This document shows positions 17,573-34,572 of a stretch of DNA of 64,000 nt, piece after piece. The DNA lies in the NCBI GenBank assembly GCA_903835685.1, contig CAILNX010000043.1, positions 124,001 to 188,000 on the forward strand, read 5' to 3'. The position numbers and the translations under genes are program-made. The notes below the pieces were generated by a model. The model did no database searches and was not told the origin of the DNA. It saw only the letters and a program-made list of their open reading frames with translations. The stretch's first letter is position 1. Each line of letters opens with the position of its first letter. This stretch comes from an uncultured delta proteobacterium. GTDB taxonomy: Bacteria; Desulfobacterota; Desulfovibrionia; Desulfovibrionales; Desulfovibrionaceae.

Positions 17573-20500
17573 TTACGCCACCTGCCGTCCCTGAGACTGG
17601 GCCAGGCGCAGGGTTCCCTCGACCTGGGCGCGCAGGGTCTGGACCACTTCCCGATACTCCTGGAGCCTGACCGCGTAGCGGGCCTCTTCCTCGGCGTTCA
17701 TCCGGGACTTCTCCGTGCCCATCTGGTCACTCAAGCGCTCCCCGTAGGCCTCGGCCGTGGACAGGGACCGCTGGATGTTGCGCAACTGATCCGGGCTGTA
17801 GTTCTCCAGGCCGGTGGACAGGCGCTGGAGGTAGTTTCCGAACCGACCCTCAAAAGCGCTCATGGCCCGTCCCAGGCCGCCGGAATCCGAAGACCCGGAC
17901 CGGGTCAGGTACGACCCGGAATCCGTCCCGGACGGGCTGCTGGAACCCAGGAGTGACGAGCGGCTGAAGGCCGATCCCGAATCCCCGCCCAAAAGGCTGC
18001 CGAAGCCCGAAAGGCCCGAGTTGGCCCGGGTGGCCTCGCGCAGCATCTCCCCGGTCTGGATCGGCCCGGCCAGGCTCATGGTCAGGCTCGGGGAAGCCAA
18101 GGAGCCCGGACCGAGGGTGGACGAGGCCAGGGAACCCGAGGAGAAGGAGACCTGGGCGGGCTCGGACTGGGCGCTCTTGGGGATCTCGGTGATGGTCATC
18201 CGGCCCGGGGTGTCGTTGTTGGCCTTGGGCGCATCGGTCACGGTCAGGGCCAGGGTGGTGGAGGCCTTGGCCCCGGCCAGGTCCGTGGCCGTGACCTCGA
18301 GATTCAGGAGCCCCACGGCCGTGTCCGGGGGCAGGCCGGAGAAGGTGCGCGAGGACGGGTCGAAATGCAGCCACTCGGGCAGGCCTCCGCCTCCGGTCAG
18401 AGAGGCCGAATAGGTCAGCACGTCGCCCTTGTCCACGTCATGGAACATCCCGGCGTCCAGGGCTAGGGTCAGGGTATTGCCAGACACGATGCTCTTGGCC
18501 GCCAGGGTCCCGGTCACCGTGGGCGCGTCGTTCACATTGATGACTTCCAGGCTGAAATCCGAGGAGGCCTTGGCCCCCACCGGGTCCGTGGCCGTGACCC
18601 GGACCGTGATCACGCCCACGTCGTCATTGGCCGGGCGGCCGGAGAAGGTCCCGGTGGCCGGGTCGAAATGCAGCCAGGCGGGCAAGGCCGAGCCGTCGGC
18701 CAGGGTGGCCTTCAAGGCCAGGGGGTCGCCATCGCGATCCGTGAAGGTCCCGGCCGGGATGGAGGCGCTGTACTCGCCCTTCTCCAGGGTGGCCTGGTCC
18801 GTGAGGGCCAGGGCCACCTGCGGGGCGTACTGCACGGTCAGGGCCACGTCCGCGTACAGCGGAGGATCGTTCAGGTTCGTGGCCGTGATCCGAACGGTGG
18901 TCGCGCCCACGTCCCCGTTCTTCGGGGTGCCGGAGAAGGTCCGGGTGGCCGGGTCGAAATGCAGCCAGGCGGGCAGGGCCGAGCCGTCGGCCAGGGTGGC
19001 CGTGAAGGTCAGGCCGCTGCCCGGGCCGAGATTCTGGAAAACCTGGTCCCGCACCGTGAAGGAGAAGGGGGTGTCCGTGCTGGCGATGGGCAGCACGCTC
19101 ACCGTGGAATGGGCCTTGGCGCTCTGGGCGGCCACGTGCGCGCCGTCCTGGGAGGACTCCACGTCAAAGCCGCCGGTGGTCGTGCTGTAGGCGTCGGACT
19201 GGAAGCGCAGCCCGGCCTGGCCCTGGGCGTAGGTGACGTAGTCCCCGTTATGCACCTTGGTCACGCCGTCATTCAAGTACAAGGAGCCGCCGATGATCCC
19301 GCTGATGCGGAAGGAGGTCACCTCGGCCCCGTCAGCCGCGTTGCGCGCGAGCACGATGGGGTCGGACAGGGCGTTCTCGGCCACGATCAGGTCCGGAGTC
19401 CGGGGGGTGTCACCCACGGCGGTGATGCCCACGGTCACCGTGGCCGCATTCAGGCTCTGGGCCGAGACGTGGGTCCCGTCCTCCGAGGCCTGGTAGCTGA
19501 AGGTGGACTGCCCGTTGCGGTCGGCCGAGGGCAGGAAGGTCATGCCCTGGCTCTCGGCGTAGGACACGTACGCCCCGTCAGCCACCACATGGCCGTCGTG
19601 GTCATAGAGCGTGCCGCCGGTGATGTTCGAAATCTTGAAAGCGGTCACCTCGGCCCCGTCGTTCACGTTGCGGGCCAGGTTGAAGGTCTGGCTTAAGGTG
19701 TCTTCCACTGTGACCACCTGCACGTCCTGCGGGGTATCGCCCACCGGGGTGATATTCACGTTCACCCGGGCGGCGGTCAGGCTCTGGGCGGCCACGCTCA
19801 CCCCGTCCTGGGAGGACTGGTAGTCGAAATGGGCCTGAGCGTTGCGGTCGGCGGCCGGGGTAAAGGTCATGCCCTGGCTCTCGGCGTAGGTGATGTAGTC
19901 CCCGTTGTTCACCAGGTTGCCGTCGTGGTCATGGAGGGTGCCGCCCACGATGTTGCTGATGTGGAAGGAGGTGACCTCGGCCCCGTCGCTTACGTTCCGG
20001 GCCAGGTTGAAGGTCTGGCTGACCGTGTCCTCCACAGTGGCCACAGTAACATTCTGGGGCGTGTCGCCCACCGGGGTGATGTTCACGGCCACCGTGGCCG
20101 GGGTCAGGCTCTTGGCCCCAACCGTGACGCCGTCCGTGGAAGCCTGGTAGCTGAAGGAGGCCTGGGCGTTGCGGTCGGCGGCGGGCATGAAGGTCATGCC
20201 CTGGCTCTCGGCGTAGGACACGTACGCACCGTCGGCCACCACGTGCCCGTCATGGTCGTAGAGGGTCCCGCCGGTGATGCCCGAAACCTTGAAATAGGTC
20301 ACTTCCGCGCCATCGTTCACGTTGCGCAGCAGGTTGAAGGTGGAGGTGCGGGTGTCCTCCAGGGTGGCCACGGTCACGTCCTGGGGCTTGTCCGCCACCG
20401 GGTTCACGGTCACGCTTATGGTCTTGGAGGCGGTCATGGCCCCGCCCGCTCCGGTGTTGCCCAGGTCGTTCACATCCACCTGGATGGTGGCCTGGCCTTT

Positions 20501-34212: not shown

Positions 34213-34434
34213 TCAGCCCACGATATGCACGATCGTACCGGTCATGCGCTCGGGCACCACGCCCTGGGTGGCCGGGGAGGTGATCACATGCCCGCCTGGG
34301 GACACGTCCACATGCCCGGCCGGGGCGGCGTTGAAATGTCCGGTGGGGGTGGCCTCCACGTGCCCGGGCGGGGCGGCCTGGGTGTAGCCGGGCGGCCCGG
34401 CCACGATATTATCGGTCAGTCCGGTGACGTTCAT
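34213..34434 (-). CDS. Small protein of histidine octapeptide repeats, unknown function
   Basis: 73 residues from ATG 34434 with GGAG upstream. The middle is a clean array of 8-residue units: [40 protein letters not shown] and a degenerate TQGVVPER. The pattern is G-H-V-x-x-x-P-x, four units keeping the histidine. The ends ([11 protein letters not shown] and [10 protein letters not shown]) are non-repetitive. No signal peptide. Regular histidines suggest metal binding, by analogy with other octarepeats, but this is inference. It sits alone between recQ and glyA. Confidence 0.65.
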
Positions 34435-34520
34435 GGCCCACTCCTTTTCCTCAAATATAGTTCCGAGGGAGGGTCTTGGCAAGGGAGGGGCGTGCCCCCA
34501 CGAATTCATTGCGAATGAAG

Positions 34521-34547
34521 GAAAAACAAGGGAGGCCGAAGCCTCCC
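34521..34547 (-). terminator. Rho-independent terminator of glyA
   Basis: On the minus strand the stem GGGAGGC / GCCTCCC with a TTCG tetraloop is followed by TTGTTTTTC. It begins 26 bp after the glyA stop, the right place to end the fab-glyA transcript before the octarepeat gene. Confidence 0.88.
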
Positions 34548-34572
34548 TTCAATATTCGCAAATCCGGGCCGT

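Follow-up and report, generated by a model that had tools for sequence, protein, structure and literature searches.

The window, i.e., the whole stretch of 64,000 nucleotides that was analysed, contains on its minus strand a gene of 73 codons plus stop (34213–34434), which encodes an octapeptide-repeat protein exactly where the earlier note had placed one, and which has homologues that are under purifying selection. An AGGAG ribosome-binding site, read from the sequence at 34441–34445 (minus strand), precedes the ATG at 34434, in agreement with the good site claimed in that note. The same frame is also open from an earlier ATG, yielding a protein of 98 amino acids, and the 73-residue start is preferred because the ATG at 34434 is the one that carries the ribosome-binding site. 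Further upstream on the minus strand there is a sigma-70-type promoter-like site, TTGCCA-17-TATATT (34454–34482), which is a consensus match only (one found versus 0.1 expected), and a terminator-like hairpin located 3' of the upstream gene (34528–34549; three such sites in the searched stretch versus 0.4 expected), so that the order on this strand is upstream gene, terminator-like hairpin, promoter-like site, AGGAG, and ATG. The same-strand neighbours, named from their translations, are presumably a glyA-like gene (serine hydroxymethyltransferase-like), located upstream, and a recQ-like gene. The opposite strand is also open at 34225–34518, and the RNA element search did not find any Rfam family at gathering score in the region of the gene.

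The protein, whose parts are all encoded on the minus strand, begins with a conserved start (residues 1–12; 34399–34434) containing the motif (L/V)TD(N/F)IVAGP that is common to long and short homologues. It is followed by five octads (residues 13–52; 34279–34398), recognized in the translation and by a lag-8 test, by a degenerate sixth octad, SPATQGVV (residues 53–60; 34255–34278), whose PATQG recurs in short homologues, and by a C-terminal end (residues 61–73 plus stop; 34213–34254) of the PE(x)xxGxI/V type that is found in many short and some long homologues. The five to six tandem 8-residue units described in the earlier note correspond to the five octads and the degenerate one, and residues 1–12 and 61–73 are non-repetitive, as it had also stated. 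The octads follow the pattern xPxG[H/Y][V/T/F]xx, each unit having exactly 8 residues, with four in-register histidines placed 8 residues apart (residues 25, 33, 41, and 49) and a tyrosine in the first unit. The lag-8 identity amounts to 21 residues, a value that none of 20000 composition-preserving shuffles reached at lag 8, nor at any lag from 2 to 20. Tandem Repeats Finder (score 30) did not list any DNA tandem array at the gene, and thus, the repeat is kept at the protein level and not at the DNA level. Elsewhere in the window (19398–20402), a 327-base tandem repeat of 3.1 copies with 73% matches was observed, which likely corresponds to domains of about 109 residues of a large protein.

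A search with the single sequence matched 74 of the 199 genomes of the window's taxonomic family. With a profile built from 21 short forms, the number rose to 79 at E ≤ 0.01, and 73 of these, in 13 genera, had E ≤ 1e-7; the six weak cases were G022, G031, G039, and G195 (E 0.003–0.009), and G015 and G026 (E 5e-5 to 8e-5). With 79 of 199 genomes matching, the lack of conservation in relatives that the earlier note had considered fatal to its claim does not apply. In the order sample, 42 of 150 genomes matched, and in the phylum sample 3 of 247 did, all of them belonging to the same taxonomic family (both samples reuse family genomes of the 199-genome search). An alignment scan of genome contigs yielded 19 loci, in records named Pseudodesulfovibrio, Humidesulfovibrio, Desulfocurvus, Salidesulfovibrio, and Desulfovibrio, and in other records labelled only as delta proteobacteria, Proteobacteria, or, once, Desulfobacterales; a single-sequence scan of genome contigs gave no relative among its 222 pattern matches.

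The earlier note could not assign the protein to any family, and our searches of Pfam, NCBIfam, PHROG, and PDB did not provide a convincing one. The window protein had no convincing Pfam match (best E 0.26 in a search to E ≤ 10), and it did not match any PHROG at E ≤ 0.01 or any PDB chain at E ≤ 10. When the 21 members were compared with Pfam (E ≤ 0.1), NCBIfam, and PHROGs, isolated weak matches appeared, none of them convincing, such as that of one member to PF21930, "beta helical trimerization domain" (E 0.026), and the best E of a PDB profile search was 0.072, with no passing stretch. A query made of the 72 N-terminal residues of a long form did not match any of 50,697 phage records, and among 18 pattern matches in viral contigs there was a single relative, located in a contig that holds portal, scaffold, and long form (L115); therefore, we set aside the idea of an ordinary phage gene. 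A literature search, which had most subscription journals outside its reach, did not find anything in print on the repeat protein. Thus, the repeat protein is a real, undescribed, and lineage-restricted family, confined to one bacterial family in the samples searched.

The coding sequences of the homologues indicate purifying selection. In genus g8, pN/pS (uncorrected and computed as a ratio of means throughout) was 0.23 over 36 pairs of 90-residue homologues, with 36/36 pairs below 1; it was 0.32 over 6 pairs in genus g25, and 0.19, 0.12, and 0.19 in three single pairs elsewhere. These values, ranging from 0.12 to 0.32, and the shuffles agree with the earlier view that the array is selected and not accidental, and as judged from these comparisons, the window gene is real and selected at the protein level. 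To describe what is kept, 132 xPxG units were counted in 33 short sequences, among them three long forms truncated by the end of a contig (L097, L103, and L107); positions 2 and 4 are set by the unit pattern itself, so that only the remaining positions are informative. Position 3 is Ala or Pro in 123 units and position 6 is Val, Thr, Phe, or Ile in 129, while His occupies position 5 in 65, being replaced by Ser (21), Ala (12), Arg (8), Gln (7), Met (7), and others, and some homologues have 0 or 1 His at this position. The kept feature is P-x-G followed by a beta-branched or aromatic residue, a predicted turn–strand pattern. Concerning the likeness to metal-binding octarepeats raised in the earlier note, it holds for the four in-register histidines of the window protein, but it does not extend to the homologues, with His in 65 of 132 units. 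Three short forms of genus g41 (L077, L078, and L148) contain consecutive VDLGGHVD octads that are nearly identical and seem to have expanded recently; the units of the window protein are diverged.

The family comprises short and long forms, the start codons of the homologues having been chosen by rule. The short forms (66–119 amino acids) consist almost only of octads, and their unit number differs between genera, so the orthologues of variable repeat number sought after the earlier note do exist. The long forms (about 360–850 amino acids) have the same (L/V)TD(N/F)IVAGP start, octads, and a Gly-rich middle, to which those of Pseudodesulfovibrio add a long Asn/Thr/Ser-rich repetitive part. 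Many long forms keep the same last residues; those of Pseudodesulfovibrio and genus g14 show PER-x-x-G-type ends, as the window protein does, and those of genus g29 have a different end, of the G-G-x-I/V type. One genome of genus g5 (G184) encodes a 76-residue short form with both conserved ends that adjoins a large terminase gene (L056), at the place where its relative has a long form (L050). Thus, a short form can occupy the slot of a long form.

The surroundings of the long forms are phage-derived. PHROG profiles identified near them a portal protein (phrog_332), a tail protein (phrog_394), large and small terminases, and a scaffold- or protease-type protein (phrog_3742 and phrog_458). Five loci (L098, L110, L113, L126, and L134) share the order scaffold, small gene, portal, a gene of about 105 residues, and the repeat gene in the opposite direction, with the large terminase further on in L113, L126, and L134. 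Additional long forms lie beside the terminase (L050 and L109), L109 showing the terminase side without portal. A very large gene of 1230–1986 amino acids, which reads by eye as adhesin-like, separates the repeat gene from the terminase side in three loci (L110, 11963–16810; L113, 12366–18323; L126, 14165–17854). Gene calling in the loci relied on a simple script that misread several G+C-rich loci (e.g., L039, L044, L046, L055, L122, L124, and L127), and thus, statements that a given gene is absent from a locus are weak. The repeat gene is antiparallel to the phage-derived genes of these loci, reading away from the portal operon, and has its own promoter-like sites: the region between the divergent genes could be aligned in nine loci, and TTGAC...TATA-like sites directed towards the repeat gene appear in seven Pseudodesulfovibrio-like rows.

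A portal gene lies within 4 kb of the long form in 12 of 32 genomes, versus 0.07 expected under random placement, a count based on the best portal matches per genome, so that second portal copies may be missed. It started from 34 genomes (33 with long forms plus G184), 32 of them with a listed portal match, in 18 cases on the same contig. The 12 close cases belong to genera g5 (seven), g14 (three), g21 (one), and g28 (one), and they reflect shared ancestry and do not count as independent. The long form of genus g29 is found away from such a locus, beside a gene that we take from its translation to be uvrA-like.

The phrog_332 portal locus itself is a near-universal, partly dispersed, phage-derived element of the taxonomic family. 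At E ≤ 1e-5, it was detected in 157 of the 199 genomes and in 36 of 44 genera, including weak matches (E 4e-7 to 1e-5) in g25 and g41, and in none of 14 control genomes; at E ≤ 1, four of the 14 controls also match, and thus, weak phrog_332 matches say little alone. Genus g40 has contiguous clusters of short-tailed-phage type, in which a single block comprises the genes for terminase, portal, head, and tail (L118 and L119). The same bacterial family harbours Dd1, the gene transfer agent (GTA) of Desulfovibrio desulfuricans (Rapp and Wall, 1987, as presented in PMC11841831, PMC11409702, and PMC6854486). According to these papers, Dd1 has a predicted small terminase gene just upstream of the large one (PMC6854486) and is counted in a 2024 review among the GTAs with only cursory characterization (PMC11841831). 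The long-form loci resemble it in having large terminase, portal, scaffold, and tail genes, although the contiguous g40 clusters do not show the repeat gene in the script gene calls. We tentatively call the portal loci Dd1-like, judging by gene content and bacterial family. From their spread (157/199), their partly dispersed gene order, and the Dd1 activity known in the family, we infer that they are probably GTA loci; they may also be defective or intact prophages.

The genome of the window carries such a cluster, of short-tailed-phage type, at about 28413–51494 of contig C16 (L059 and L060), separate from contig C43 where the repeat gene lies. Six of its eight scanned proteins match terminase, scaffold, head, or tail families, the portal matching phrog_332 at 3.5e-154, and on reading its genes by eye, we did not notice any integrase or replication gene. 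This cluster is possibly a GTA or a domesticated prophage.

Across the 199 genomes there was no significant co-occurrence of the repeat family and the phrog_332 portal, since the portal was matched in 67 of the 79 genomes with the family and in 90 of the 120 without it (Fisher p 0.11); the other 12 family-bearing genomes have no phrog_332 match at E ≤ 1e-5. For seven short forms whose contig also contains a portal gene, the two lie 230–1454 kb apart, and with the exception of G184, no short form whose surroundings were read adjoins GTA genes. Most genomes of g25 and g41 keep a short form without a strong phrog_332 match. In each of the nine that were tested at E ≤ 1, a weak match was present (4e-7 to 2e-4), and its distance from the repeat gene is about 10 kb and 15 kb in two g41 genomes, and about 60 kb in a third one. 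As read by eye, these weak matches lie inside another phage-like cluster, which has different genes and recurs in g25 and g41 (L147, L149, L151, and L152).

Taking these observations together, we tentatively propose, with a confidence that stays clearly below even, that the octad protein serves as an accessory component (fibre, spike, or decoration) on the surface of a GTA particle, or on that of the particle-producing cell, the window form being ectopic. A narrower version, in which the Pro-Gly octads of this lineage-restricted family form a thin fibre that decorates or guides dispersed GTA particles, and the window gene is its minimal ectopic form, is distinctly less probable. Because x-P-x-G is a classical beta-turn sequence, and the four residues that remain are suitable for a short strand, turn–strand units are proposed, each octad consisting of a beta-turn (x-P-x-G) and a short strand (x-V/T/F-x-x). 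The octads would become ordered only once the chains assemble, giving a thin fibre or patch, and the conserved ends would act as anchor and tip, closing the array. In one branch, the long form would be a particle or cell-surface part encoded in the phage-derived locus, and the window would encode such a part ectopically, as a short form.

The C-terminal beta-helix of T4 gp5 and the ice-nucleation proteins also consist of octad repeats with a conserved Gly and a beta-branched position. The window family shares with them the eight-residue period and both of these features, but it has a Pro in every unit, and neither the window protein (E ≤ 10) nor the 21 members (E ≤ 0.1) matched T4 gp5 or ice-nucleation repeats in Pfam. 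AlphaFold, run with 16 and 11 sequences, gave a mean pLDDT of 40.9 and 43.8 and no usable model, a prediction that does not support a folded monomer and is silent on assembly. In PMC6854486, the genes for tail fibres and head spikes of the Rhodobacter capsulatus GTA are described as ectopic, a precedent for particle parts encoded off the main cluster, the particle role of the repeat protein being putative. The repeat protein does not appear to stand in for a T7-type tail fibre; this candidate was ruled out by the presence of a tail-fibre-type gene (phrog_1640 start domain) in 35 of the 36 genomes tested, with and without long forms.

The GTA-accessory role is favoured by the placement of the long form near the portal in 12 of 32 genomes, in four genera, by the gene order shared by five loci, by the G184 short form in the terminase slot, and by the terminase, portal, scaffold, head, and tail cluster in the window's own genome. 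Against it stand the short forms away from the portal and the absence of portal association, the short forms kept in most g25 and g41 genomes without a strong phrog_332 match, the g29 long form found elsewhere, the kinship of the 12 close cases, the tail-fibre-type gene that is present anyway, the missing AlphaFold fold, and the lack of a match in the phage records, as well as the antiparallel direction of the repeat gene and its own promoter-like sites, which are as a passenger gene would show. Almost as likely is a function in the cell apart from gene transfer, the protein being a turn-rich peptide of flexible, elastin-like or adhesive character, located within the cell or on its surface, and the GTA neighbourhood of one branch being an inherited passenger insertion. 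The varied housekeeping surroundings of the short forms agree with it, including, by a crude pattern, a flgF-like gene beside 14 of 16 loci of genus g8, and so do the promoter-like sites, the missing portal association, and the low pLDDT. However, this explanation does not account well for the repeated placement in GTA-like loci of four genera nor for the G184 short form in that slot, and no signal peptide is apparent by eye.

The remaining explanations are far less probable. Octarepeats of the prion protein bind copper, and the window family resembles them in having eight-residue units with His, but it differs in that only about half of its units carry this residue. We consider it quite improbable that the in-register histidines bind Cu, Ni, or Zn so that the cell can store, sense, or detoxify these metals, even though four of them lie exactly 8 residues apart in the window protein and g41 forms keep many GHV units; this interpretation is weak because His is not conserved (65/132 units, several members having 0 or 1), and it was set aside as the main one. 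In addition, no metal gene was noticed beside the repeat gene in the gene lists read. It is still more doubtful that the protein gives rise to a modified or secreted peptide, its start serving as the leader and each octad as one copy of the core. Its small size, conserved start, and variable core number are in line with this, and one of the 21 members weakly matches the modified-peptide precursor model TIGR04186 (E 0.042), but that match does not exceed chance, in the gene lists we did not notice any adjoining gene for modification or export, and the long forms of about 360–850 amino acids do not fit. Finally, a chance open frame in G+C-rich intergenic DNA, suggested by the small size and by the open opposite strand, is refuted by the conservation in 79 of 199 genomes, with pN/pS well below 1 and both a ribosome-binding site and a promoter-like site present, and its probability is practically negligible.

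Short repeat proteins that do not belong to any family are easily dismissed as spurious, and the family of the window protein, conserved in 13 genera and under purifying selection, is a case to the contrary. Its long forms are markers of phage-derived loci, and loci of this kind occur in most sampled genomes of the taxonomic family. If the octad protein is a particle part, it would provide a handle on Dd1-type gene transfer; if it is unrelated to particles, it would still be a new repeat protein to characterise.
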